From Calditrichota bacterium (lineage in GTDB: Bacteria > Calditrichota > Calditrichia > Calditrichales > J004), in the NCBI GenBank assembly GCA_003696775.1, contig RFFS01000200.1:1-42252 (forward strand): a stretch of 42,252 nucleotides of DNA, in the 5' to 3' direction. The notes under the pieces were generated by a model. The model did not search any database, had not been told where the DNA came from, and saw nothing but the letters and a program-made list of their open reading frames with translations. The position numbers and the translations under genes were made by a program. Numbering within the stretch: the stretch's first letter is position 1; each line of letters begins with the position of its first letter. Below, piece after piece: positions 1,127 through 39,673 of the stretch.

Positions 1127-2590
1127 TTAAAAACGTGTGCTCCATTGAACTTCCAGGCCTTCAAATGGCAAAACACGGTAACAGATGCCTCCCGTGCAGG
1201 CGTTTCCCCCACGCCGTTTGCCATAAAAAAGATCAAGTGTATTGTGCCCGTCCACCTGATAGTTGATGGTGAGCGCCGGCCAAAAGACATCTTCGCCGTT
1301 CCCCGTTATTTCCACCGGATCGTTGGAATGCTCCACAACCAGGGTAAATGAAAAATCCGGCGCCGAAGTCAATGATAAAGCCAGTAATTGATTGCCGATC
1401 ACCTCCACGGATGAAAAAAGGCGTTTAAGACGTTGGGCTTCCGCTTCCAGAACGATCCCCCAGCGTGGCGTTAAAGGGCCTTCCAATTGCATGCCGGCCG
1501 TGTATCGTTCCGTTTCGCCGACCAATTCATCCTGGCTGACATCGGCAAACAGCTTGCCCAGCCATTCATCGGTCAGATAATATTGCAGGTCGGCATAGTA
1601 TTCATAAAAAACCGCTTTAAAGGATGAAAAGCGATTCACGGCCCGGCTGGCGTTGAGGGTAACGGTGTTGAACGCCCCGATATTCCACAACAATTCGGCC
1701 TGGTAGCCGGTTTCGTCCGAGGGTTCAATGGAATGGGTGGCGCGGTTAAGCAAAGTGAAACTATGCTCCTTAACCAGAGGGGGCGGTTCGTTAAATCCCA
1801 TGGTGTATTGTTTATAGCGTTTGTATTCCAGGCTCAGGGCCAGGGCCTCGCCATATACATTCAATGCGCCGTACAAGGCGTGGGGTGTGTTATTATCAAA
1901 AGGGGGGCGGCCGGATTGCTGGCTGTATTCGGCGTAATAATCAAAAAAAGGACCCGCGCCTTCCACGCTGGCGCCGCCATATTCACGGATTATATGTTGC
2001 GCGTCGCTGCGCAGATACAACAGACCGGTTTGCAGCCCGTCGTTAAAACGATAACGTGCCTGACCTCCCTGGATAAGATTGGAGCGACGCTGGGTTTGGC
2101 CATAAGCGGGCGGGATGACCAGATTCAGCGGACGGCCGTACAAGGCATTGATATCCCAGTCGCCTTTGCGGTAAAGCAATTGCAGGCCGTCGATATCCTT
2201 ATAAAAACCATATCGCTGACGGGTGCCGGTGTCCTCATACACCACACCCGGTACATCATATCCGCGCAACAGGGCGCCCCGGCCCAACATGGTATAAAAA
2301 TTCCCGGCGGTCAGGGTCAGGCCGTTTTGGGCGTATCGTATAAAACGTTGCGTGATGCGTGCGTAACGCCGGCTGTCGTCCACGGAGTAGATTTCCGCGC
2401 GCATGCCCAGTTGGAAAGCATCCGATACGGCCAGCATATTGAGTTGGTTGTAAAGGTTGGAACGATTGGCCGGTTTCTTTTCTGGCAGGTTGCCCACCTG
2501 CCACACCGCCTGATTGGAGCCGCTGATCTGCGCCCGCATGGCACTTACCGTAAGCAATAGCACGGTGAGCCCGTATATCCAATTATTCAC
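1127..2590 (-). CDS. DUF6029-like outer-membrane beta-barrel protein
   Basis: This 487-residue protein has a signal peptide (cleavage near AMRAQ, residues 17-21) followed by a long run of alternating amphipathic strands rich in Tyr, Gly and Asn, such as the GFYKDIDGLQLLYRKGDW stretch. It ends in an aromatic residue (STRF), typical of outer-membrane barrels. Early segments (NLYNQLNMLAVSD, GNFYTMLGRGALLRGYD) resemble the DUF6029 family of Bacteroidota, whose function is not established. Its start overlaps the end of the TlpA gene by 8 bases, so the two are translationally coupled. Sitting between a periplasmic thioredoxin and a surface redoxin, it may be an outer-membrane partner in the same redox process; that role is inference. 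Confidence 0.75.
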   Translation of the reverse strand: MNNWIYGLTVLLLTVSAMRAQISGSNQAVWQVGNLPEKKPANRSNLYNQLNMLAVSDAFQLGMRAEIYSVDDSRRYARITQRFIRYAQNGLTLTAGNFYTMLGRGALLRGYDVPGVVYEDTGTRQRYGFYKDIDGLQLLYRKGDWDINALYGRPLNLVIPPAYGQTQRRSNLIQGGQARYRFNDGLQTGLLYLRSDAQHIIREYGGASVEGAGPFFDYYAEYSQQSGRPPFDNNTPHALYGALNVYGEALALSLEYKRYKQYTMGFNEPPPLVKEHSFTLLNRATHSIEPSDETGYQAELLWNIGAFNTVTLNASRAVNRFSSFKAVFYEYYADLQYYLTDEWLGKLFADVSQDELVGETERYTAGMQLEGPLTPRWGIVLEAEAQRLKRLFSSVEVIGNQLLALSLTSAPDFSFTLVVEHSNDPVEITGNGEDVFWPALTINYQVDGHNTLDLFYGKRRGGNACTGGICYRVLPFEGLEVQWSTRF

Positions 2591-3080
2591 CGGCGGCCTC
2601 CAAAAAGGACGTCAGTTTTTCCCGCAACAGGCGTTCGTCGCCCGATTTGAATCCGATATGGGTATAAACAATTTCATTACGCGCGTTGATAATGAACAGG
2701 GTGGGGAAAGCTTTGACATTCAGCTTTCCCGTGACCACTCCGTTGGGATCGCGTAAAACGGTATAAGCGATTTTATTGATGCGCACAAACGGTTTTACCT
2801 TGGCGCTGTTACGCGGGCTGTCCGTATTGATGCCAATAACCCGGATACCACGCGCGGCAAAATCGTTTTGCAGGGCGTTAAGGGCAGGGATGGCCCTGAG
2901 ACAGGGTTTACACCAGGTGGCCCAAAAATCGATGACGGTGAACCGCTCCCCTTTTAAGTTATTAAACGATTGTTCCCGTCGATCCAGGTCTTGTAACCTG
3001 AAATCGGGAATCGTGCCGGCCCGTGCAACAGCCGATGCCAGCAACAGGGCTCCGATGACCGATAATAATTGAACACGCAT
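2583..3080 (-). CDS. TlpA-family thiol-disulfide oxidoreductase
   Basis: A 165-residue periplasmic thioredoxin-like protein. Residues 1-21 form a signal peptide ending ARAG. The thioredoxin fold carries the classic FWATWCKPC active site near residues 51-59, followed by a cis-Pro loop (KAFPTLFI). TlpA/ResA proteins keep cysteines of exported proteins reduced, for example in cytochrome c maturation; no cytochrome gene is in view. It is separated by only 2 bases from the lipoprotein redoxin upstream and overlaps the barrel gene downstream by 8 bases, so the operon is tightly coupled. The ATG at 3080 is immediately before the signal peptide. Confidence 0.88.
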   Translation of the reverse strand: MRVQLLSVIGALLLASAVARAGTIPDFRLQDLDRREQSFNNLKGERFTVIDFWATWCKPCLRAIPALNALQNDFAARGIRVIGINTDSPRNSAKVKPFVRINKIAYTVLRDPNGVVTGKLNVKAFPTLFIINARNEIVYTHIGFKSGDERLLREKLTSFLEAAGE

Positions 3081-3082
3081 GG

Positions 3083-3592
3083 TTATTCCTTTATCAATGA
3101 AGTGATTTTCTCGCGCAGGGCATCCACCTGTGTGCCCGATTGCCGGTAGGCGATCCGACCTTTTTTATCGATCAGGATATTATAATCGTTGGTGGCGCCA
3201 TATAAATCGCCCACGCCGCTGCCTTGCAGCCCAAGGGGGAAAGTAACGCCGGTTTGAATTTTAAAATTCGCTAATTGTCCCGCCGATCCGTCCCATACAT
3301 CGATGCCGATGACCGTAAGCGAATCGGAGCTTAAGGAGAGATGAATATCCTTTTCGATGCCCGGCGCGGTGACCATGCAGGGCGGACAGGCATAACCGAT
3401 AAAAAAGAGATGCACGACCCGGCCGGTTGCTTCCGACAGTTTAAAGGTGCCGTGATCCAGAGTTTCCATGGTGAAATCCGGCGCGGCGGAGCGTTCGCTT
3501 TCATCGGGGTTGATTGCGCCGGTGGGGTTCTCCGTATTGGCACAGGCCCAGAGGTTCAGCATAAGAGCCGTAAATAACAGTGGTTTTATCAT
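3083..3592 (-). CDS. Redoxin-domain lipoprotein
   Basis: The start is placed at the ATG at 3592, which opens a lipoprotein signal (MIKPLLFTALMLNLWAC) with a lipobox Cys at residue 17; an in-frame extension to 3649 would bury this signal. A GGCGGGA ribosome-binding site precedes it. The mature part is a redoxin fold with GYACPPC and GIDVWDG motifs, paralogous to the secreted redoxin at 332-1108 but without a sorting domain. It is the first gene of the four-gene minus-strand operon and probably sits in a membrane facing the periplasm. Likely a thiol-disulfide oxidoreductase; an alternative is a peroxiredoxin-like enzyme. The divergent glmM-like gene begins 196 bases away. Confidence 0.82.
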   Translation of the reverse strand: MIKPLLFTALMLNLWACANTENPTGAINPDESERSAAPDFTMETLDHGTFKLSEATGRVVHLFFIGYACPPCMVTAPGIEKDIHLSLSSDSLTVIGIDVWDGSAGQLANFKIQTGVTFPLGLQGSGVGDLYGATNDYNILIDKKGRIAYRQSGTQVDALREKITSLIKE

Positions 3593-8837: not shown

Positions 8838-9743
8838 TCAATGGCCTTTGGTCCAATCGGAATCCGGTCGCTTAAAGGGCTCGCTGAAAAAGCGTTCCGC
8901 CGTGGCGTTGAATAATGCGGTTTTGGTAGCCGGCGCATAGTGGGTTGCGCCCGGTAAAATGGCCAAATGTCCCTTGCGCAGATGTTGGAAAATCCGTACC
9001 GAGTGTTCCTCGCGGATGATATCCTTATCGCCGGCAACGATCAGAACCGGCACGCGGATCGACTCAATCTCGCTTAGTGCAATGTGGGGTTGATCGCCCA
9101 GCAGTTGCAGGTGTTGACGCAGCAGCGGCCAGTTTTGGCTGGTATCGCCGCTGTCGATTTTCTGTTCCACTATCTTCCGCGTGCGCGCCACCCAGTTTAC
9201 GGCCCAGTCATAAACAGCGCTGGTATCAGGTTGCAGGTTGGCGCCCATGGTGACCATTTTTTTCACCTTGGACGGGTGTTCGATGGCCAGCAGCAGACCG
9301 ATGATCCCGCCGTCACTCCAGCCGATTACATAGAGCGAATCGAGATGCAGATAATCGGCCAAAGCAGCCCAGTCATCGGCCATTTGCCGATAGGTCAGAG
9401 AATCCGTTCGGAGTTCCGAGCGGCCATGCCCCCGGCTGTCGGCAACGATGACCCGGTAATGTTGTTTGAAATAATCGATCTGATTTTTCATGGAAGAGAT
9501 ATTGCCGCCGTTGCCATGAATCAAAAAGAGCGGCGCGCCGCTGCCATATACCTCATAGTACATGTTGAAGCCGTTGACCGGTGCCATGCGACCGACGGCG
9601 GGGTTTTGTCCGTAAGGAATCGGCGATGCCTGGGGGGATGTTTGTGACCATAGGGTGGCGGTGACGAGCAATAGTAAATACACCACGAAGCACTGTAAAC
9701 GAAAATCGTAACGGGTCCGAAAAAAATTATTCATTTTCATCAT
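8838..9743 (-). CDS. Secreted alpha/beta hydrolase
   Basis: A 301-residue protein with a hydrophobic export signal (about residues 17-33, ending LWSQ). The mature part is an alpha/beta-hydrolase: oxyanion loop HGNGGN (76-81), nucleophile elbow GWSDGG with Ser143, an acid in VAGDKD (239-241) and His268 in GATHYAP. All triad residues are present. Closest in character to esterase/haloperoxidase-like or lactonase-like members; the substrate cannot be read. Its start overlaps the end of the response-regulator gene by 17 bases, so it is probably co-translated with that signalling protein. Several in-frame ATGs lie within the first four codons (MMKM), so the exact start is uncertain by a few residues. 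Confidence 0.85.
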   Translation of the reverse strand: MMKMNNFFRTRYDFRLQCFVVYLLLLVTATLWSQTSPQASPIPYGQNPAVGRMAPVNGFNMYYEVYGSGAPLFLIHGNGGNISSMKNQIDYFKQHYRVIVADSRGHGRSELRTDSLTYRQMADDWAALADYLHLDSLYVIGWSDGGIIGLLLAIEHPSKVKKMVTMGANLQPDTSAVYDWAVNWVARTRKIVEQKIDSGDTSQNWPLLRQHLQLLGDQPHIALSEIESIRVPVLIVAGDKDIIREEHSVRIFQHLRKGHLAILPGATHYAPATKTALFNATAERFFSEPFKRPDSDWTKGH

Positions 9744-11463
9744 TATCCAAATCCGGTAAATGGATACCCAGGTTATAGGCGGTTTTCAGAGCCACGGTGC
9801 GGATATTATTGGCTGCCGCCTCGGAAATATCGCCGGTAAGGGTTTTGATAAACAGGGGGTAAAAAACCGCGCTGTCACATAAAATTTGGCGTATCGTGTC
9901 ATTTTCGAAAACCACATGAGTGGCCAGGTAACTGTTGCGGCGTAATTTGTCAAGGGCGTCGCGCAGGGCCATGTCGCCCTGAATTTGTTCCAGAACCTGA
10001 TTGGCCGCCCGGATCACCTGTTTTTCTTCCGGGCCGTCATGATGTTTAACGGAAGCGTAACCCCAATCCAACAGTTCCAGCCGGCTTGTAAAATATGGAA
10101 TCATCTCTTCGCGGATAAGGCGACCGTAACGCGGAGCGATCAGTTTGGGCGCCGGATCGAGCTTGCCGATGGCTTCCAGTAAACGATGGATGACCACCGC
10201 GCCCGGAAAATGATCCAGATGATAGCGCAACATGCCGTTCCAGTCGGTTTCCAGGGCATAGAGGAAATGCTTTTCCTGATTGTCCACCGGGTAGGAAGAA
10301 AACAGGTTACCGCTGTACAATACGCGCCTTTCCTGATCGTACATCATAAACGCGCCGGGTTCAGGAGAAAAAGACGCCGGAATAAGGACAATAGCGTTGC
10401 CCGATACCAGTTTCAATTTGTAGGGCGCCGAGAGGGGAACCTTTTTTACGCTTTCCTCCGGAATTTCGTAATGCTGCAGCATGGGCCAGCATTCGGCACC
10501 GGTAATGCATAACGCCCGCGGATTCATCTTACGGATAAACATGCTGTTCAAAGCCACATCCGGCGTGCTGGAAGAGATCAGATACAGATTGATGCGGTTG
10601 GCATCCCCGATAACCTGACCGATTTTCCGGTTGATGGTGTTCAGGTGGATGGGGGATCCGGGATCGATCAGAAGATGGATGGGCTTTTTATTGGTTTTGT
10701 AAATGGAGAGATAGCTGTTTTTAAGTCCATTGTTCTCACCGTACACAACGCCTGTCCACCATACATTGGGCATCAGCTCGATGGCTTTACCCAGGTCCAC
10801 TTCGTTTTGGCGGGTGTGCAATTCCCGGGAAAGGGTCATGGCGCTGGGACGTATAACAAACGTGCCGCGTGTCCATTGACGCAGGATATCCAGGGCCTGG
10901 TCGTCCCGGCTATCTTCCAGTTCCACGCCCAGAATGTCACCGCTGTTCAGGCGTACCCGCCCAACGCGATTATCCTGCTGCAGAATCAATTCACCGGTTA
11001 TATTATCCTTCAGGCAGAGTTCCAGCACTTTTTCCAACGGCACGTCCTCCAGGGAGCCTTTGTGCTGCAGGGCCTGGATTTTGGATTTTTCCACCCGACG
11101 GAATATGGCTTCGATTTTGACCAGAACCTCATCCACACTGAACGGTTTGAGCAGGAAGTCATCGCCCCCCGCGGAAATGCCCTCCACCATTTTTTCTTTT
11201 TTGGCGGTTAAAAAGACAAAAGGAGTGGATTCCGTAATGGGGTTCTCGCGAACACGACGGCAAAAGTCAAGACCATTCAGATTGGGCATGCTGATATCCG
11301 AAATGATTAAATCCGGCACCGTGGAACGTAAGGCTTCCAGGGCTTTTTCACCGTCGCCCACGGCGATAACCTCATAGGAACCGCTTAATTCCAGGATGCG
11401 TTGCAGGGCCTGTAATATGGCTTCTTCGTCTTCGACAACTAAAATGGTCTTTTTTGAATTCAT
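9727..11463 (-). CDS. Response regulator: REC + DUF4388 (PATAN) + degenerate flavodiiron-like metallo-beta-lactamase domain
   Basis: A 578-residue soluble signalling protein. Residues 1-122 form a complete receiver domain (acidic pair E11/D12, phosphoacceptor D56, T86, K106). Residues 131-215 match DUF4388. Residues 232-475 follow the oxygen-sensor/flavodiiron MBL fold (WTGVV start, LLIDPGS strand, VLYSGNLF, LIAPRYG). Aligned by eye with NorV, the HxExDH ligand set becomes S298, T300, D302, V303; the HW motif His is F365; the bridging Asp is N386; the last His is Y446. Only one ligand remains, so metal binding is unlikely. Residues 480-578 are helical and unassigned. The domain is probably a scaffold or sensor rather than an enzyme. 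It overlaps the hydrolase gene downstream. Confidence 0.85.
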   Translation of the reverse strand: MNSKKTILVVEDEEAILQALQRILELSGSYEVIAVGDGEKALEALRSTVPDLIISDISMPNLNGLDFCRRVRENPITESTPFVFLTAKKEKMVEGISAGGDDFLLKPFSVDEVLVKIEAIFRRVEKSKIQALQHKGSLEDVPLEKVLELCLKDNITGELILQQDNRVGRVRLNSGDILGVELEDSRDDQALDILRQWTRGTFVIRPSAMTLSRELHTRQNEVDLGKAIELMPNVWWTGVVYGENNGLKNSYLSIYKTNKKPIHLLIDPGSPIHLNTINRKIGQVIGDANRINLYLISSSTPDVALNSMFIRKMNPRALCITGAECWPMLQHYEIPEESVKKVPLSAPYKLKLVSGNAIVLIPASFSPEPGAFMMYDQERRVLYSGNLFSSYPVDNQEKHFLYALETDWNGMLRYHLDHFPGAVVIHRLLEAIGKLDPAPKLIAPRYGRLIREEMIPYFTSRLELLDWGYASVKHHDGPEEKQVIRAANQVLEQIQGDMALRDALDKLRRNSYLATHVVFENDTIRQILCDSAVFYPLFIKTLTGDISEAAANNIRTVALKTAYNLGIHLPDLDNDENE

Positions 11464-11596: not shown

Positions 11597-12037
11597 ATGA
11601 AAGACCTGTTGGAAAAACTTAAAAAAGGCGTGGAGGAAAGTTTTGACGCGTTGCGCGATAACGCCGTCAGTATAAAAGATATTGCCGGCGATTACGGAAA
11701 AATAGCCAAGCTGCGCTTTGAAAAACATCAATTGCAAAGCGCGCGCGAAAAGAAACTGACGCTTTTGGGTAAAACCATTTATCCCTATATGTTGGAAAAC
11801 CGTCCGGAACATCTGCGTGAGCATGAAACCCTGCCCATGCTGGTGGATGAAATCAAGAATCTGGATAATCAGATAGAATTGCTGCAATTGGCCATCAAAG
11901 ATATCGCCGCGCGGGAAATACAGAAAACGCGCCGCACGGAAAAAGAGGCTTTGTACCGGCAGATAGAAGCTCTCGAGGAACAGATTGAAAAACGATTGAA
12001 TGAGCTGAAAGCGGTGCGGGACGCATTGGATAAATAA
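11597..12037 (+). CDS. Coiled-coil protein of unknown function
   Basis: I do not recognise a family. The 146-residue product is highly charged, with no signal or membrane segment. Two predicted coiled-coil stretches, about residues 1-60 and 85-145, are rich in Lys, Glu, Leu and Gln (for example LYRQIEALEEQIEKRLNELK). A middle segment contains LGKTIYPYMLENRP. An AGGAAA site precedes the ATG. It is divergent from the response regulator and lies upstream of the TPP riboswitch without an obvious terminator between, but the riboswitch implies that the next operon has its own promoter. Codon use looks like that of neighbouring genes. Confidence 0.7.
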   Translation: MKDLLEKLKKGVEESFDALRDNAVSIKDIAGDYGKIAKLRFEKHQLQSAREKKLTLLGKTIYPYMLENRPEHLREHETLPMLVDEIKNLDNQIELLQLAIKDIAAREIQKTRRTEKEALYRQIEALEEQIEKRLNELKAVRDALDK

Positions 12038-12225: not shown

Positions 12226-14679
12226 ATGAAAACATTTTTCTTCATTTGTATCATGTTGGTACAGGCCGTGATGGCGCGGCAGGTTATAGTGCAGGGCGTT
12301 GTCCGTTCGGCGGAAGACCACCGGCCGTTGGAAGGTGTTAATGTATATTTAAGCCGGGGCGCCGCCGGCACCACCACCAATCTTGACGGCCGCTATGCCT
12401 TGTCCGTGGCCGCGCGGGAATCGGTGGAATTGGTTTTTTCTTATGTGGGTTACGCGGAACATTATGTTCATCTGAACGCCGCGGCGGATACCACGCTCAA
12501 TGTGGTGTTGGCAAGAAAAGTGCTGGAAGGGCCGATCGTGCATGCCGAGGCCACCCAGGTGCAGCAGGCGGCCAATGTGACAACCTATAGCGAAATCCGT
12601 AAACACGATTTCCTGAAAAGATATACCACGCAGGACGTTCCGCAATTGCTGGCCGAATTGCCGTCGGTTTCCTTTTATTCCGAAGGGGGCAACGGTATCG
12701 GATATAACTACCTCACGGTACGCGGCTTTGATCAACGACGCGTGGCGGTGATGATCAACGGCGTGCCGCAAAACGATCCCGAAGACCATAATGTTTATTG
12801 GATCAATTTTCCCGATATTGGCGCCAATATCCAAAGCATCCAGCTGCAACGCGGCGCGGGTAACGCCTTCTATGGCCCGGCGGCCATCGGCGGCTCGATC
12901 AATATCAAAACGGATCATTTTTCGCCCACCATGAAAATCCGCGCGGACTGGGGGCGCGGAACCTTTAATACGGAAAAACAATCGCTCTATTTCAACAGCG
13001 GTTTATGGCGGGATCATTGGCTGGTTTACGGCCGGGTCTCAAAAATGACCAGTGACGGATACCGTGACCGCGCCTGGGCGGATTTTAAGAGTTATTTTCT
13101 CGGTGCGGCATATTACAATCATCAAAGCAGCCTGCGTCTTCATTTTTACGGCGGGCCGATTCGCGACGGATTGGTTTACAACGGCCTGCCTAAACTGGTG
13201 AACAATGATCGTGTGCTACGGCGCGCCAATTGGAGTTATTTCGGCCTGGATTCCACCGGAAAAAAGGTGGCTTATTTCGCCGAGCGTCGCGATGATGAAA
13301 CGGAAAGTTTCAATCAGCCCCATGTGGAATTATTGCATCAATGGAAAATCAACGATAAATGGGAATTGGACAATACACTGTTTTACATCAACGGATACGG
13401 CTATTTCGATTACGATGGCAGTTGGGGCACCGGCGAATATTTCCGTTTAACGCCGCAATACGGTTTTGACAGCACATTAACCGTGCCCTCCGATGCCCTG
13501 GTGCGCGCTTATGTGGATAATAAACAGGTGGGCTGGACACCGCGCCTGACACTTAAAGGCGTGAATGGCAGCGTGCTGATTGGCGCGGAATGGCGCATGC
13601 ACCGTTCCGAACATTGGGGCCGCTTGCAAAAAGGCAGCGGCTTGCCGGCGCGTGCCGCCGGCGATCAGGCGCAAAAATATTATGCCTATAAAGGCGGCAA
13701 GGATATTTTCTCGCTTTATTATCATCAAAATTATCTGTGGTCACCCACGATTACCATACAGGCCGATATGCAGGCGGTGTATAAAAAATACCGCCTTTAT
13801 GAAGAAAAATATGTGGGTACCGGATTTGAAGTCCCTTATCTGTTCATCAATCCGCGACTCGGCGTGAATATCGTGGTGGATAAAAACAGCCGCGCCTATT
13901 TTAGTCTTTACAGCACCGGCAGGGAACCGCGTTTAAAAAACCTATACGATGCGGCGGAGGCCAGTACGCCGGTTTCCTGGGGCGCTGTAGTACCGCAATT
14001 TGAACAGAAATCCGACGGGAGTTATGATTATACCCGGCCTTTGGTCAAGCCGGAAACCCTGAACGGTCTGGATTTCGGGTATCGCCTTGGCGGACAATGG
14101 GGCCAAATGAGTCTGAATGTATATTACATGGATTTTATCAATGAGATCATTAAAAAAGGCGGTCTGGATCGTTTTGGCCAGCCGCGAACCGGTAATGCCA
14201 AACGCACCCTGCATTATGGCGTGGAGTGGGCCGGACAGTGGAACATTTTGCCCGAACTATCGCTGACGGGCAATATGACCCTCAGCCGGAACATACTTAA
14301 GGATTACACGGTGTATGACAAATCGGGCGAGGCGCGCGATCTCAGCGGTAATACCATCGCCGGTTTTCCGGACTGGATGGCCAACGCTCGGCTGACTTAT
14401 GTTAAGGGCCCCTACTATCTTTCCCTGTCCGGTCGTTTTTCGGGCGCCAGCTTTACGGATAATTTTAACACGGCGGAAAACAAAACCGACGCCTATGCCG
14501 TGTTCAACTTAAATGGCAGCTATACTGTTAAAAAAGTCATACCATCAACGGATATAACCCTGTATATTCAGGTGAATAATTTGTTTGACCGGTTATATCT
14601 CGCCTATGGCGAAGGCGATGCGTTTTTCCCGGCGGCAACTCGCAATATGTTTGCGGGAGTTCGTTTTGAGTTCGAATGA
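12226..14679 (+). CDS. TonB-dependent outer-membrane receptor, probably for thiamine
   Basis: An 817-residue receptor. Signal peptide at residues 1-18; a carboxypeptidase-regulatory-like beta-sandwich (about 22-108, VQGVVRSAEDHRPLEGVNVYL); a plug domain (about 115-230, with LTVRGFDQRRVAVMINGVPQND and LQRGAGNAFYGPAAIGGSINI); then a 22-strand-type barrel ending in the FAGVRFEFE terminal strand with a near-terminal Phe. Such receptors import scarce ligands using TonB energy. The TPP riboswitch in front and thiamine pyrophosphokinase behind point to thiamine or a precursor as ligand; that is inference from context. GAGGGG precedes the ATG. The next gene begins inside its last codons. Confidence 0.9.
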   Translation: MKTFFFICIMLVQAVMARQVIVQGVVRSAEDHRPLEGVNVYLSRGAAGTTTNLDGRYALSVAARESVELVFSYVGYAEHYVHLNAAADTTLNVVLARKVLEGPIVHAEATQVQQAANVTTYSEIRKHDFLKRYTTQDVPQLLAELPSVSFYSEGGNGIGYNYLTVRGFDQRRVAVMINGVPQNDPEDHNVYWINFPDIGANIQSIQLQRGAGNAFYGPAAIGGSINIKTDHFSPTMKIRADWGRGTFNTEKQSLYFNSGLWRDHWLVYGRVSKMTSDGYRDRAWADFKSYFLGAAYYNHQSSLRLHFYGGPIRDGLVYNGLPKLVNNDRVLRRANWSYFGLDSTGKKVAYFAERRDDETESFNQPHVELLHQWKINDKWELDNTLFYINGYGYFDYDGSWGTGEYFRLTPQYGFDSTLTVPSDALVRAYVDNKQVGWTPRLTLKGVNGSVLIGAEWRMHRSEHWGRLQKGSGLPARAAGDQAQKYYAYKGGKDIFSLYYHQNYLWSPTITIQADMQAVYKKYRLYEEKYVGTGFEVPYLFINPRLGVNIVVDKNSRAYFSLYSTGREPRLKNLYDAAEASTPVSWGAVVPQFEQKSDGSYDYTRPLVKPETLNGLDFGYRLGGQWGQMSLNVYYMDFINEIIKKGGLDRFGQPRTGNAKRTLHYGVEWAGQWNILPELSLTGNMTLSRNILKDYTVYDKSGEARDLSGNTIAGFPDWMANARLTYVKGPYYLSLSGRFSGASFTDNFNTAENKTDAYAVFNLNGSYTVKKVIPSTDITLYIQVNNLFDRLYLAYGEGDAFFPAATRNMFAGVRFEFE

Positions 14680-15301
14680 GGTTGTAATAATAGCCAACGG
14701 CCCGGAGCCGAAGAATCGGGTGGTGCAACGGGTGCTTACGGATGAAAGCTTCGTTATCGCCGCCGATGGAGGGCTGCGGCATTGCCGGGCTCTGAACCGG
14801 TTACCGAATGTGGTCATTGGTGACTTGGATTCCGTCCTTTCCCAGCCGATTGACGGCATTCCCCGGGAAATGTTTTTGGAAGTTCATGACCAAAACCGAA
14901 CCGATATACAAAAGGCGTTGGATTTTGCCGTAAAGCTGAAACCGAAACGTATTCATTTGTTGGCGGCTTTGGGCGCACGGCATGATCATACGTTGAGTAA
15001 TGTGTTGATTTTGAACAGGTTTGATGAGATACCGTTGTATATGTGGGATGATTACGGCTGCTTTTACGGGATAAATGCCGGAGGGCACACACTGGAATGC
15101 CGAAGCGGTGAGACGGTTTCCCTGTTTAGCCTGACCGGCGTAACCGGCATCGATTTAAGCGGCTTTGAATTCACACCGCGGGAGTCGGAATTCAGCGCGG
15201 GATTCAACGGTGTAAGTAACCGCGCCCTGGAAGACAAACCGCGCATATCCTTTACCAGCGGGCGCCTGATCGTTTATGAGCAGAAGTGGCGGGAACAATG
15301 A
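14666..15301 (+). CDS. Thiamine pyrophosphokinase
   Basis: A 211-residue enzyme that transfers pyrophosphate from ATP to thiamine to give TPP. Visible motifs: IIANGP near the start, AADGGLRH, the metal-site segment VIGDLDS, DQNRTDIQKAL (the TDxxKA motif), ALGARHDHTLSN, and a C-terminal substrate-binding fold with the GVSNRALEDKPRISF segment. The start is taken as the TTG at 14666, overlapping the receptor gene by 14 bases, with GGGAG six bases upstream; the in-frame extension further upstream is a shadow of the receptor. It ends in an ATGA overlap with the symporter gene. The equivalent gene is called tnr3 in Bacteroidota thiamine clusters and thiN in Bacillus. Confidence 0.88.
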   Translation: MSSNEVVIIANGPEPKNRVVQRVLTDESFVIAADGGLRHCRALNRLPNVVIGDLDSVLSQPIDGIPREMFLEVHDQNRTDIQKALDFAVKLKPKRIHLLAALGARHDHTLSNVLILNRFDEIPLYMWDDYGCFYGINAGGHTLECRSGETVSLFSLTGVTGIDLSGFEFTPRESEFSAGFNGVSNRALEDKPRISFTSGRLIVYEQKWREQ

Positions 15302-16668
15302 AAGACGAGGGGATTATTATTGTTCTCTACCTGCTTCTGCTCTTTTATTTAGGGTGGCAGGCCCGTAAAAAAAACACCGCGCGAAAAGAAAGCTTTTTAC
15401 TGGATAACCGCCGATTGACCCTGCCGGCGATGGTGGCCACCCTGGTTACAACCTGGTATGGCGGTATCCTTGGCGTAGGGGAGTTTGCCGTTCAAAAAGG
15501 CGTGGTCACCTGGTTTGTATTCGGCCTGCCTTATTATATATTCGCTGTTATTTTCGCTCTATTTATCACACCCCGTTTACATGCCGCCCGTTATTATTCC
15601 ATACCGGATATTTTATATCGTCATTATGGTAAAAAATCCGGGTTGTTGGGCAGTTTACTGGTCTTTGTGCTCACCTCGCCCGCGCCCTATGTATTGGGCA
15701 CGGCTATCATTCTCAGCCGGGTATTCGATTGGAGTTTTTGGCTCTCGGTCATTCTCGGCGCCCTCTTTTCCGTAGCCTATGTCTATCAGGGCGGCTTTCG
15801 TTCCGTGGTGCAAACGGATAAACTGCAATTTGTGCTGATGTTCGGCGGCTTTGGTTTGTTGCTGGCGGCGTTATGGCACACGTACGGTCCCGTTACGGAT
15901 TTGCCGGATAAACTGGACCCGGTTATGATGGCCCCGACGGGCGATTTGAGCTGGCAGGAGATCGTTGTTTGGTTTTTAATCGCCAGTTGGACTTTTGTCG
16001 ATCCGTCGTTTCACCAGAGAGTGGCCGCCGCGCAAGACAGTTCCACCGCGCGCAACGGTATTTTATGGTCCATTCTGTTTTGGTTTGTTTTTGATATGCT
16101 CACCCTGTCCACCGCCCTGTACGGCGCGGTCTATTTGCCGGGTGTCGTCCCTTTGATGATCTATCCCATCCTGGCTGAACAGGTGTTGCCGGCCCTGTTA
16201 ATCGGTTTGATATACACCTCTTTGTTATCCGTTACCATGTCCACCGTGGATAGTTACAGTTTTTTGGCCGCGCAAACCTTTGGCCGTGATCTGCTGGCGG
16301 AACTGGGCGGAAAAAACACGGACATGGAAGTACGCTATTATACCCAGTGGGGATTGATTATCTCCATGATATTAGCGCTTACGCTGATTATGGTTATGCC
16401 CTCCGTGGTGGAAATGTGGTACACCCTGGGTACTTTGTTTATTCCCCCTTTGCTGGGTCCGGTTTTGATGGCTATATTCCCCCGTTATACACTGCCCGGT
16501 GAGCGGGTTTTTCAACTGATGTGGATTTCCCTTAGCGTTACCGTCGGTTGGTTTTTTATGGGCGTTCTGTTCAACACGCCCTGGTTGGGTGTGGAGCCTT
16601 TCTTTCCGGGTCTGATTGTATCATTTATTGTTTGGTGGAGCCTGCGGCTTAAATTAAAACAAGCCTGA
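15298..16668 (+). CDS. Sodium:solute symporter (SSS family), predicted thiamine transporter
   Basis: A 456-residue inner-membrane protein with about 13 membrane segments. Family features include GGILGVGEFAVQKG in the second helix region, FVLTSPAPYVLGTA, and the SLLSVTMSTVDSYSFLAAQTFGRDL stretch typical of the Na2-site helix. SSS proteins couple sodium entry to import of sugars, amino acids or vitamins. Here the gene shares an ATGA overlap with thiamine pyrophosphokinase, under a TPP riboswitch, so thiamine or its pyrimidine precursor is the likely substrate. In related bacteria a PnuC-type carrier (PnuT) fills this slot; SSS proteins predicted as thiamine carriers (ThiV) are known from comparative genomics. 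ATG at 15298 is preferred over the GTG at 15286. Confidence 0.88.
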   Translation: MKDEGIIIVLYLLLLFYLGWQARKKNTARKESFLLDNRRLTLPAMVATLVTTWYGGILGVGEFAVQKGVVTWFVFGLPYYIFAVIFALFITPRLHAARYYSIPDILYRHYGKKSGLLGSLLVFVLTSPAPYVLGTAIILSRVFDWSFWLSVILGALFSVAYVYQGGFRSVVQTDKLQFVLMFGGFGLLLAALWHTYGPVTDLPDKLDPVMMAPTGDLSWQEIVVWFLIASWTFVDPSFHQRVAAAQDSSTARNGILWSILFWFVFDMLTLSTALYGAVYLPGVVPLMIYPILAEQVLPALLIGLIYTSLLSVTMSTVDSYSFLAAQTFGRDLLAELGGKNTDMEVRYYTQWGLIISMILALTLIMVMPSVVEMWYTLGTLFIPPLLGPVLMAIFPRYTLPGERVFQLMWISLSVTVGWFFMGVLFNTPWLGVEPFFPGLIVSFIVWWSLRLKLKQA

Positions 16669-17682: not shown

Positions 17683-19563
17683 TTAACGGGCCGTACCCGA
17701 AGAGCTTAGGGACGGGCGGCGCAGGGCGGCGATATTGATTTGGGTGGTTTGACTCATACGCGGCAGGCGGATATAAAAGGTGGTGCCTTTCTTTTCCACA
17801 CTTTTGAAGTCGATTTGCCCCTCGTGGGCTTCCACAATGTTGCGACAGATGGCCATGCCGATACCGCCGCCGTCATGTTTGGTGGTAAAATATAACTCAA
17901 ATAAACGTTCCTGAACCTCGGGCGGCATACCGCAGCCGTCATCTTCTATTTCCACAAGAAGCTGCCCGGCGTCCATACGCGTGGCAATACGTACGGTTCC
18001 GGTGTTGTGTATGGCCTGAAAAGCGTTCAGCACGATGTTGAGAAAAACCTGTTTCAACTGATCCGGATCGCCATAAATCCGCTCCACGGCCGGGTCCAAG
18101 GCCTTTTCTATTTTTATGTTGCGTTCAATAGCCTGTTGATGAACCAGCGTTATCACATCTTCCAAAACCGTGTTGATGTGAATGGCGTTCAGGTCGGTTT
18201 TTTTGACGCGGGCAAGATTAAAAAACTGATTGATGATGCGGTTCAGCCGTTTCACTTCGTTTTGCAACACATTTAATGATTTATCGATTGCCTCTTTGTT
18301 TTCCAATTCCATTTCTTCCAGACGCATGTGGAGTATTTCCGCGTGGATGGCCATGGACGAAAGCGGGTTTTTGATTTCATGACTGATGGAACTGGCCAGG
18401 CTGGCAATAACGCCGAATTTCATGGAACGTTGCAGGTTGTTTTGCAATTCGTTGAGCAATTTCTGATCCTTGATGGTTAACAACATGCCCGAGACCTGGT
18501 TCTCATCATGCAGAATAAATGTGGTCACGCGGGAAAGCACATGACGACCGTCGGGCAGCCATAGATTCAATTCATGGCCAAAAACATTTTCTTCCCTTTC
18601 AAAGCTGCGGGCGATTAGTTCGTCCAGTTCCTTGTTCATGGCAATGATTTGCTGGAAGTGGCTTTCAAAAAGCATCTCCACCGGACATTGAAACAGGTCA
18701 ACCGCCACTTCGTTGTAATCGCTGACCGCTCTTTTGGCGTCCAGCAGAATGATACTCTCATCCACCGCCTGCATCAGAGCATTGATCCGTCGCTCGGTTT
18801 TTTTGTAACTGGCCTGCATCACATTCACCTTTTCCAGCGAGGCGTCGATGCGGGAAAAGGTGTCAGTAAATTCATCCTGGCCTTCGTAATTGATACGATA
18901 GCTGTAATCGCCCTGGGCAATATTTTCCGCCATGGTTTCAATGGTTTCCAACGGTTTGGTATAAGCCCGTGATACGAGATAAATGGAAAAACCGATCAAC
19001 AGAGCCATAACAAGCCCGAGCGGCACAAACAGATAAAAGATATCACCGAAAACATTCTGAATTTCCTTTTGTGACAGCACCAGGCGCAGATAGCCGTGCA
19101 CGGCGTTTTTTTCACGCATCAGGGGTAAAATTACATCCACAACCCTTACCGAATCATTCCACGTTTTGCGGATAACCTTAGGCGCATTGCCCTGCAGGTT
19201 TTTAAGTTCTTCCGGCGAGGTATATTCCCGGCCCTCCACACTACGGTCGCTGCTGAGTAAAATGCGCATTTTATCACTGATCAACAGGATATGGATAATA
19301 TTACCTTCTTCGGAAGTCAGGGAACGCATAAGGCGGCGCAGACTGCTTTTTTCGTGCGGGGTGAGACTTTCCAGGTCCCTATCGGCGGCGTTGGCCAGTA
19401 TCTCGCTGACGGAATCGCCTATCAACAGAGCGGTGCGGCGGATCATTTCCCGGCCCAGGCCCTGATAGGTGTTGTAGAGTAAAATACCGCTGAACACCAA
19501 AATCAGGCTAAAAAGAATAAAAATGATAATGATTCGTTTATAAACCGTTTTCATCCCGTTCAC
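17683..19563 (-). CDS. Membrane sensor histidine kinase (HAMP-PAS-HisKA-HATPase)
   Basis: A 626-residue kinase. Membrane helix at about residues 10-30, a ~145-residue periplasmic sensor region, second helix at about 176-198, HAMP (199-255), a PAS domain (260-365, ESIILLDAKRAVSDYN), HisKA with phosphoacceptor H395 in SSISHEIKNP, and an ATPase domain with N box (NIVLNAFQAI), G1 (DDGCGMPPE) and G2 (GGGIGMAICRNI). All catalytic elements are present. No cognate regulator is adjacent. The GTG at 19563 forms a GTGA overlap with the upstream gene's stop; an ATG at 19554 with a GGTGA site nearby is a plausible alternative. Confidence 0.9.
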   Translation of the reverse strand: MNGMKTVYKRIIIIFILFSLILVFSGILLYNTYQGLGREMIRRTALLIGDSVSEILANAADRDLESLTPHEKSSLRRLMRSLTSEEGNIIHILLISDKMRILLSSDRSVEGREYTSPEELKNLQGNAPKVIRKTWNDSVRVVDVILPLMREKNAVHGYLRLVLSQKEIQNVFGDIFYLFVPLGLVMALLIGFSIYLVSRAYTKPLETIETMAENIAQGDYSYRINYEGQDEFTDTFSRIDASLEKVNVMQASYKKTERRINALMQAVDESIILLDAKRAVSDYNEVAVDLFQCPVEMLFESHFQQIIAMNKELDELIARSFEREENVFGHELNLWLPDGRHVLSRVTTFILHDENQVSGMLLTIKDQKLLNELQNNLQRSMKFGVIASLASSISHEIKNPLSSMAIHAEILHMRLEEMELENKEAIDKSLNVLQNEVKRLNRIINQFFNLARVKKTDLNAIHINTVLEDVITLVHQQAIERNIKIEKALDPAVERIYGDPDQLKQVFLNIVLNAFQAIHNTGTVRIATRMDAGQLLVEIEDDGCGMPPEVQERLFELYFTTKHDGGGIGMAICRNIVEAHEGQIDFKSVEKKGTTFYIRLPRMSQTTQINIAALRRPSLSSSGTAR

Positions 19564-37858: not shown

Positions 37859-39673
37859 TCAGGGAACCACCGTCACATTGATCACAGCCGAGGTCGCGCT
37901 GTTTCCGGATGCATCGAAGGCTTTGATATAGACCGTATGAACCTGATTGTCGGCATAAGGCGCGGTGTTCCATGCATAGACGTAGGGCGCCGCGCTGTCG
38001 GTGCTTTTCAATTCCCCGTCAATATAAAACTCCACGGAAGATACGGCGACGTTGTCTGTAACATCGGCGGAGACATTCACCGTACCGGATACGGTGGAAC
38101 CGGCAACCGGAAATAACACATTCACCGTCGGCGGTGTCAGATCATCGGAATTGTTGTTGGTAACCACTACTTCGATAACCCCCGTGGTGCTGGTGTTGCC
38201 GCTGTTGTCATACGCTTTGGCGTAAAGGGGATGTGCTTTGTTATCGGCGTAAGGCGCGGTATCCCAGTTAAAGCGGTAAGGCGCCGTATCATCCTGTAAA
38301 ATTTTCTCGCCATCCACAAAAAGTTCCACATAAGCCACGCCGTCATCATCGCTGGCTTCAGCGGTAACGTTCACTGTACCGTAAACAAATTGTCCGCCGC
38401 CGGGATACGTTATAGCAACCGTGGGTGGTGTGATATCCGGGGAGTTGCCTGTGGAAAGGAAGACGGTTGTCAGGGCCGTCACCGCGGCATTACCGCCACT
38501 GTCATAGGCGCGGGCGTATAAACTGTGATTTTTGTCGTCGGCGATAGCCGATGGGTCCCAGGTGAAATTATAGGGGTGTGTGGTATCCGTAAATAAAAGG
38601 GAACCATCAAGATAAAATTCGACTTTGGTAATGGTACCGTCATCAGTAGCCTCGGCCGCAACCGTAACCGGCTGATAAATTACCTGACCGGGTAAGGGGC
38701 TGGCCATAAATACCGTTGGCTCTGTAACATCGGTAACGCTGTCACTGGGAGTGGTGACGGCCACCACCAACGATTGGGAAACGTTACCGTTTATGTCGTA
38801 GGCTTTGGTGAACAGGCTGTGGCTTTGGCCGTCGGCATAGGGTTGTGTATCCCATTCAAATGCATAGGGGGCCTCGGTGTCCGTGGCGTAATAGGCGCCG
38901 TCCACATATAAATCCACATTTTGAATACCTTTATTGTCGTTGGCCTCGGCGCGCACGGTAACCGTATCGCGTACCAATTGCCCGGCGAGAGGATAGGTAA
39001 TGGCCGTGGAAGGGGGGACCTGATCGTCATTGGCGAACACATTTACGGTAACGGTGGCCGAAATGGCTGTGTTATTGCCGCCGTCAAAGGCCTTGGCGTA
39101 CAGCACATGGGCGGAAGAATCGGCCCAGGCTGCGGTATTCCAGTCAAAATTATAGGGGTAAGCGGCGCTGATACCGATGGAATCGCCATCCACGAAAAAA
39201 GCTACTTTCTGGATGGAACGTTCATCTTTGGCCTGTGCGCTGATGCGCACCGTGCCGGAAACCGTTTGGCCGCCTTGCGGAGACAGGATGGTTACCGTCG
39301 GCGGAATAATATCCTCCGTATCGCTGATGATAAAACGCACCAATGGAGAATAGCCCACATTACCCGATTTATCCGTGGCCGTTGCCTGAGCCACGTGCTC
39401 CAGTTTGTCCTGCTTACCGCTGATATTCAAATCGATCAGATACGGTTTGGTGGAGGAAACGCCGACCAGCTCACCGTCCAGATAGAGGGCCACTTCGGAA
39501 ATGGCATCGGTGTCGGTGGCTTCGATACGCGCCTGAATATTTTGTGAGATAACTGCTCCGTCGTATGGGAAAATCAACAGCGTAACGGGAGGCACCAGGT
39601 CCTGGGGTTGAGGCAGTTCGCAGGAAGTGAACATGAGTATCGGACTTAAATAAAGAGCGATGCGTTTTAACAT
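37859..39673 (-). CDS. Lipoprotein with six tandem Ig-like (Big_7-type) domains
   Basis: A 604-residue lipoprotein: signal MLKRIALYLSPILMFTSC with lipobox Cys18. The rest is six tandem repeats of ~95 residues, each opening with a PPT-V-x-x-x-x-P-x-x-G motif, with a central VELFVDGE-type strand, a PY-x-F-x-W-D-T turn and a YAKAYD-x-x-G-N end. This is the bacterial Ig-like Big_7 pattern, common in surface adhesins and carbohydrate-associated proteins. No catalytic or C-terminal anchoring domain is present. AGGAG precedes the ATG. The upstream region has a hairpin at 39709-39730, and a terminator follows at 37803. Function unknown; a spacer or adhesive surface fibre is possible. Confidence 0.88.
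   Translation of the reverse strand: MLKRIALYLSPILMFTSCELPQPQDLVPPVTLLIFPYDGAVISQNIQARIEATDTDAISEVALYLDGELVGVSSTKPYLIDLNISGKQDKLEHVAQATATDKSGNVGYSPLVRFIISDTEDIIPPTVTILSPQGGQTVSGTVRISAQAKDERSIQKVAFFVDGDSIGISAAYPYNFDWNTAAWADSSAHVLYAKAFDGGNNTAISATVTVNVFANDDQVPPSTAITYPLAGQLVRDTVTVRAEANDNKGIQNVDLYVDGAYYATDTEAPYAFEWDTQPYADGQSHSLFTKAYDINGNVSQSLVVAVTTPSDSVTDVTEPTVFMASPLPGQVIYQPVTVAAEATDDGTITKVEFYLDGSLLFTDTTHPYNFTWDPSAIADDKNHSLYARAYDSGGNAAVTALTTVFLSTGNSPDITPPTVAITYPGGGQFVYGTVNVTAEASDDDGVAYVELFVDGEKILQDDTAPYRFNWDTAPYADNKAHPLYAKAYDNSGNTSTTGVIEVVVTNNNSDDLTPPTVNVLFPVAGSTVSGTVNVSADVTDNVAVSSVEFYIDGELKSTDSAAPYVYAWNTAPYADNQVHTVYIKAFDASGNSATSAVINVTVVP

Follow-up and report, generated by a model that had tools for sequence, protein, structure and literature searches.

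The window, a stretch of 42,252 nucleotides that constitutes contig C67 of a Calditrichota MAG (3.25 Mb, 97% complete), carries on its minus strand a single long open reading frame (ORF) that matches the response regulator described in a first-pass annotation and encodes 578 amino acids (table 1). This regulator consists of a receiver domain (REC), a PATAN-type DUF4388 domain, an ODP domain of the metallo-beta-lactamase (MBL) fold and a C-terminal tail. All three Pfam domain matches lie far beyond chance, with PF19583 reaching 88 bits (cut-off 27.2); DUF4388 scores 25.8 bits against a curated cut-off of 25 and falls below it in some orthologues, which makes this particular assignment marginal. 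Neither a DNA-binding domain nor a recognised enzyme domain was found by Pfam in the regulator, and its tail, which is also present in ODP paralogues devoid of REC, matches no Pfam family. The receiver residues D56, T86 and K106, previously listed as intact, are all present, and across 20 aligned orthologues D56 and K106 are kept throughout (20/20 each) and T86 in 19/20, the exception being locus L020.

Table 1. Features of the regulator locus (positions are those of the window).
Feature	Position	Strand	Evidence or remark
REC-DUF4388-ODP response regulator gene	9727..11463	-	ATG at 11463, stop 9729-9727
Receiver domain, residues 7-117	11113..11445	-	Pfam Response_reg 2.6e-26
Receiver codons D56; T86; K106	11296-11298; 11206-11208; 11146-11148	-	
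DUF4388 (PATAN-type) domain, residues 135-213	10825..11061	-	Pfam 1.1e-5, 25.8 bits
ODP (metallo-beta-lactamase-fold) domain, residues 249-447	10123..10719	-	PF19583 9.6e-25
ODP motif 2: S298, T300, D302	10558..10572	-	Alignment with intact orthologues, paralogues and outgroups
ODP motif 3: P367 (ancestral H)	10363..10365	-	Alignment
ODP motif 4: N386 (ancestral bridging D)	10306..10308	-	Alignment
ODP motif 5: R445-Y446 (ancestral Q-H of APQHG)	10126..10131	-	Alignment and PMC7785958
C-terminal alpha/beta tail, residues 478-564	9772..10032	-	AF2 secondary structure; alignment
Coiled-coil protein, 146 aa, divergently transcribed from regulator	11597..12037	+	Conserved neighbour
Alpha/beta hydrolase overlapping 3' end of regulator	8838..9743	-	Pfam Abhydrolase_1 5.1e-23

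The 146-aa coiled-coil neighbour, for which Pfam gives no match, belongs to a cluster (cl2) with members next to the regulator at 12 of the 15 further loci used for comparison, in which the ORF of the window itself was masked by an overlapping spurious ORF. Past it lie genes for a TonB receptor, a thiamin pyrophosphokinase (TPK) and a sodium:solute symporter, and this conserved synteny argues for true orthology of the regulators. The latter three genes (12226-16668) form a block conserved at nine loci, perhaps a thiamin uptake cassette. A gene for a HAMP-HisKA-HATPase histidine kinase (17683-19563, minus strand) lies 6 kb from the regulator; regulator loci have no conserved adjacent kinase gene. 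Farther along the window, 37859-39673 (minus strand) encodes a protein of 604 aa that contains six or more immunoglobulin-like domains of the Big_7 type.

When the C-terminal 348 residues of the regulator were compared with the sequences in the PDB, ODP entries came first (6e-13 and 4e-10) and every flavodiiron protein ranked below them. An AlphaFold (AF2) model built with 29 related sequences had a mean pLDDT of 85.5, and when it was compared with the PDB by Foldseek, the top ten matches were all ODP (6qwo/6qrq/6r9n/6qnm), with TM-scores (target) of 0.77-0.85 over the ODP chain; according to their descriptions, the matched entries show a chemotaxis sensor in its apo, zinc-reconstituted and peroxy-diiron states. 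The ligand-intact orthologue L016 has the same top structural matches, at a sequence identity of 27-28% as against 18-21% for the window protein. With ODP matching best by sequence as well as by fold, the domain is an ODP by descent, the fold of which is, according to the model, preserved. The structure prediction, which the first-pass annotation had proposed to compare with NorV or Treponema ODP, points to an ODP, and the ODPs of Treponema and Thermotoga (the four entries named above) are to be preferred to NorV as closer by both measures. A NorV-like flavodiiron core was rejected on these grounds and for the absence of a flavodoxin domain: Pfam finds no flavodoxin match in the window protein, and in the AF2 model the tail forms a different helical/beta domain.

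The di-iron ligand set of ODP reads H-x-D-x-D / H / D / QH; according to a passage in a secondary source (PMC7785958), the third His of motif 2 is replaced in ODP by a Gln at motif 5, and from this statement together with the alignment we infer that the Gln ligand corresponds to column 445, i.e. the Q of APQHG, which is R445 here. In an alignment guided by fully intact relatives (motifs NHQDPDV, FCH, GDL and APQHG), six of the seven ligand positions of the window protein are changed (H298S, D300T, H367P, D386N, Q445R and H446Y), and D302 is the sole one kept (1/7). The six replacing residues are not expected to build a di-iron site, and no ligands were found elsewhere in the domain when it was aligned with intact orthologues, to which the full-length protein is 36-38% identical. 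The window protein is a member of the ODP family by descent and, as judged from these residues, not a functional di-iron ODP. The original claim of lost metal ligands was therefore right and becomes slightly stronger with the proper ODP ligand set; S298, T300, D302, N386 and Y446 had been read correctly and all stand in ligand columns. Two assignments have to be revised, however: nearly all fully intact ODPs examined have V at the position of V303, which had been taken for a lost His (distant ones have I or L), and the column of the motif-3 His is that of P367, two residues away from F365.

Among 40 Calditrichota genomes searched, 22 contain an ODP domain, all of them within three families (f1-f3). 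Orthologues with REC occur in 21 genomes and comprise the 20 that were aligned (L009-L028) and L030, which is broken by a contig end and was excluded from the trees; genome G012 has just a REC-less paralogue. When six of the positions (H, D, D, H, D, H) are scored, all ligands are kept in three of the 20 orthologues (L016, L017 and L022), and only the first His (H298) is missing in two (E in L014, N in L015). More ligands are lost in the other 15: three remain in L023 and L024, two in L019 and L021, a single one in L020, L025 and the window group, and none in L013, L018 and L026-L028. The first His is gone in all 17 non-intact orthologues, which suggests an order of the loss events. Outside this set, the ligands are intact in all nine REC-less ODP paralogues of the phylum and in 11/11 ODPs examined outside Calditrichota, including L085 (genome G092), a REC-ODP in which Pfam does not call DUF4388 and the only one among nine genomes of its phylum. 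Together with the three intact orthologues, this makes it most likely that no ligand was missing from the ancestral architecture, and the proposed direction of evolution, i.e. loss of the metal site from an ODP-type ancestor, was read correctly. The congeners of the window organism (G016, G017 and G018) have ASDPNRY at the seven ligand positions; ligand loss is common to all four congeners and, by this shared pattern, is old, and nearly identical replacements in three congeneric genomes rule out an assembly or frameshift artefact. Thus, inspection of the ligand columns across REC-DUF4388-ODP homologues, as initially suggested, reveals a graded series from intact to none: homologues with the same architecture and a full ligand set do exist, but the window protein is not a lone decayed copy among them, a possibility rejected by the orthologue table. 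Two loci differ further. L018 (1477-2916, minus strand; genome G019) has an early stop and is without most of the C-terminal tail. L020 (1435-3237, minus strand), which has an OmpR-type regulator and a gene resembling histidine kinases as neighbours (L050), has also lost the receiver acidic pair (now IS) and T86 (now V) and may be degenerate at both its receiver and ODP ends.

How often the ligands were lost was assessed on a tree built without the ligand columns and their neighbours. Six losses are counted on the maximum-likelihood tree (Dollo, no regain) and at least three if weakly supported nodes are re-resolved, and unconstrained parsimony requires only three changes between the intact and non-intact states. 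A single origin was rejected both for all non-intact rows (AU p 1.3e-6) and for the rows with at most one ligand (AU p 1.4e-5), p-values that share the weaknesses of the model on long branches. By its placement, the clearest independent loss is that of L025, which groups with the intact L017 with high support. As read from alignment and tree, loss has been stepwise and has occurred more than once in Calditrichota, always including the first His. Several pocket columns shift alike where ligands have been stripped (H367 to P, H446 to Y/F and GG389-390 to SS, i.e. G389S), and H367P, H446Y/F and G389S are present in L025 too; since ten stripped rows may be one clade, it is chiefly L025, and for some columns L019, that supports convergence.

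By its codon substitutions, the ligand-less ODP domain is under purifying selection. Among the congeners G016, G017 and G018, its dN/dS comes to roughly 0.06-0.08 for L010-L011 and 0.09-0.12 for the pairs that include L012, silent sites being saturated in comparisons with the window protein itself. For the intact REC-less paralogue in these genomes, the same methods put the ODP domain at roughly 0.01-0.05; with the REC-family ODP evolving somewhat faster, drift at a relaxed site may account for some of the change. The structural columns W236, G238, N249, G269, L382, G385, F388, P444 and G447 hold in stripped and intact forms. A separate observation is that, between L010 and L012, dS is low in REC (about 0.18) and high in ODP (about 0.9), which suggests a recombination mosaic inside the gene.

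ODP domains also occur in other settings. In sister genomes, the intact REC-less ODP is encoded alongside a receiver protein and a further small protein (L060:6915-10922, L059:7468-11489, L057:6595-11542), joined in L059 and L060, the two family-f1 loci, by a protein of weak V4R similarity; the small protein is weakly Roadblock-like by eye and has no Pfam match, and histidine kinases lie nearby in L057 and L060. Outside Calditrichota, L104 is a fusion of ODP with GGDEF and L096 one with a Ser/Thr kinase, and among the matches from a search of PLSDB plasmids for further REC-ODP, the three inspected are all stand-alone ODPs beside GGDEF or chemotaxis genes. These fusions and plasmid contexts characterize ODP as a plug-in signalling domain. 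The L096 protein (1174-3282, minus strand; another phylum), a Ser/Thr protein kinase fused to a ligand-intact ODP according to Pfam, is a candidate O2-responsive Ser/Thr kinase, and a related genome has an ODP match in a 726-aa frame (L106). In the draft assembly of the window genome, neither another ODP-family gene nor the V4R-like neighbour was found, and the organism thus appears to be without a metal-competent ODP.

Repeated stepwise ligand loss along with preservation of the rest of the protein makes it most likely that the domain has been kept as a metal-free module. We therefore consider it probable that an O2-sensing output domain has been converted into a metal-free, phospho-controlled protein-interaction module, and infer that the ODP domain of the window protein binds neither iron nor O2. 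Going by the architecture, phosphorylation of D56 would alter the dimer or the interdomain arrangement, and this rearrangement would expose or hide a surface for partners that is made up of DUF4388, the pseudo-ODP and the C-terminal tail; the ancestral response to O2/iron as a direct signal would have been dropped, with the kinase signal now being the main input. With DNA-binding and recognised enzyme domains absent, the output is probably a protein-protein contact. Regulators of the DUF4388/PATAN type do contact pilus parts, e.g. PixE binds the pilus ATPase PilB1 (PMC7690835), and by this precedent a contact mechanism is plausible, which does not imply control of motility or of a surface system, an output that the first-pass annotation considered possible. 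Repurposing had already been proposed in the first-pass annotation, and fold, old loss, selection and intact receiver are all as expected from it; its link to the hydrolase did not hold up.

Alternatively, the ODP domain might have lost its function and be disappearing, so that REC-DUF4388 would be the sole working part. Many different residues at the ligand positions, the truncated tail of L018 and the absence of the gene from an otherwise kept locus in G007 and G021 are in line with such neutral decay, but the ligand-less domain has a dN/dS far below 1, 19 of the 20 aligned orthologues (all except L018) have full-length ORFs, fold-defining columns are invariant and whole genera share the loss, which renders decay improbable. 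We see just as little likelihood in metal still being bound via altered or second-shell ligands, e.g. at a mononuclear site of D302, N386 and H415, with sensing persisting in another form. His has been lost at motifs 3 and 5 in favour of Pro and Tyr, Q445 is now Arg, and D302, although kept here, is often E, G, H or Y in lineages without the other ligands; H415, although present in 20/20 orthologues, is Gln in five fully intact paralogues and hence not a core ligand. Intermediates such as EDDHDQH could still bind metal.

Two other readings start from the gene neighbourhood. A local two-gene unit, in which the regulator controls the overlapping secreted alpha/beta hydrolase, was suggested by the 17-bp overlap of the two ORFs in the window; yet the hydrolase stands beside the regulator only in the window genome and has no counterpart at this position in G016, G017 and G018 or elsewhere in the family, and a regulator without a DNA-binding domain makes this unsupported coupling more problematic still, so that we regard it as very improbable. 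Behind the regulator, families f2 and f3 have genes for two 6-pyruvoyl-tetrahydropterin synthases (PTPS), GTP cyclohydrolase I and a short-chain dehydrogenase (SDR), often with an intervening group-1 glycosyltransferase, the ORF of which overlaps the regulator in four loci (L047, L048, L050 and L055). This operon-like row headed by the regulator (L047:7861-12888, L046, L048-L051, L053-L055 and L070, with the glycosyltransferase in some) is found in at least nine genomes, and its gene set resembles that for biopterin and pterin-glycoside synthesis of cyanobacteria and Chlorobium (PMC3546692). The pseudo-ODP pocket might thus now bind a small molecule, with a pterin as the most concrete candidate, and phosphorylation and ligand would be two inputs. 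Besides the operon itself, the occurrence of regulator and twin-PTPS operon in the same three families and the recurrent rather than random changes of the pocket columns speak in favour of a pterin receptor. The link is broken, however, in the family of the window organism, where the operon is located elsewhere (on contig C130 in the window genome), and in G007 and G021 the operon and the flanking coiled-coil gene persist although the regulator is missing between the two; moreover, ligand-intact members occupy the same operon, and the co-occurrence may reflect shared descent. The pterin link is therefore ancestral but not obligatory and is weakened as a general rule, and we consider a small-molecule receptor, for a pterin or otherwise, unlikely. 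Doubtful, too, is the wider notion that the lineage has repeatedly turned an O2-sensing di-iron domain into a receptor for another signal, possibly the glycosylated pterin of the operon it formerly headed; if true, a single architecture would span metal sensor, partly stripped and metal-free forms in one phylum.

Overall, the window protein is best described as a response regulator with a metal-free ODP, which stands close to one end of the graded series in Calditrichota. In a search of the open-access literature that was not full, neither REC-DUF4388-ODP proteins nor metal-free ODPs were found to have been described. With its conserved synteny and intact receiver, the orthologue series, which leads from a full site via loss of the first His to near-complete loss, allows a direct test of the role of a metal-free O2-sensor domain and of whether ODP signalling needs iron. 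It also calls for caution: annotation as REC-ODP or 'MBL-fold' does not imply oxygen sensing.

Among known systems, several share some of these traits with the putative metal-free interaction module. PqsE of Pseudomonas is an MBL-fold protein that signals by binding another regulator and keeps its metal site. RhlR complexes (PqsE bound to RhlR, 8dq0) are among the structure-search matches of the intact orthologue L016, and PqsE and the window protein have the MBL fold in common, but PqsE is not fused to a receiver. The PATAN/DUF4388 regulators PixG, PixE, LsiR and PatA share REC and a PATAN-type domain with the window protein as well as the absence of a DNA-binding output; an ODP is not reported for them, and type IV pili or cell differentiation are the targets of those known. 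Flv1 transfers electrons and carries flavin domains. Like the window protein, Flv1 of Synechocystis (a class-C cyanobacterial flavodiiron protein; 6h0c, 6h0d) has a flavodiiron-fold core with mutated ligand motifs, and class-C proteins of the Flv1 type are reported not to bind metal in a passage of PMC7785958 that cites Borges 2019; in the window protein, however, the flavin domain is absent and the setting is that of two-component signalling. Closest are the ODPs of Treponema denticola and Thermotoga maritima, which are of the same fold and family and likewise stand in a signalling rather than a catalytic context. Whereas these act through a chemoreceptor, the ODP of the window protein is fused behind REC and DUF4388 and has lost six of its seven ligands.
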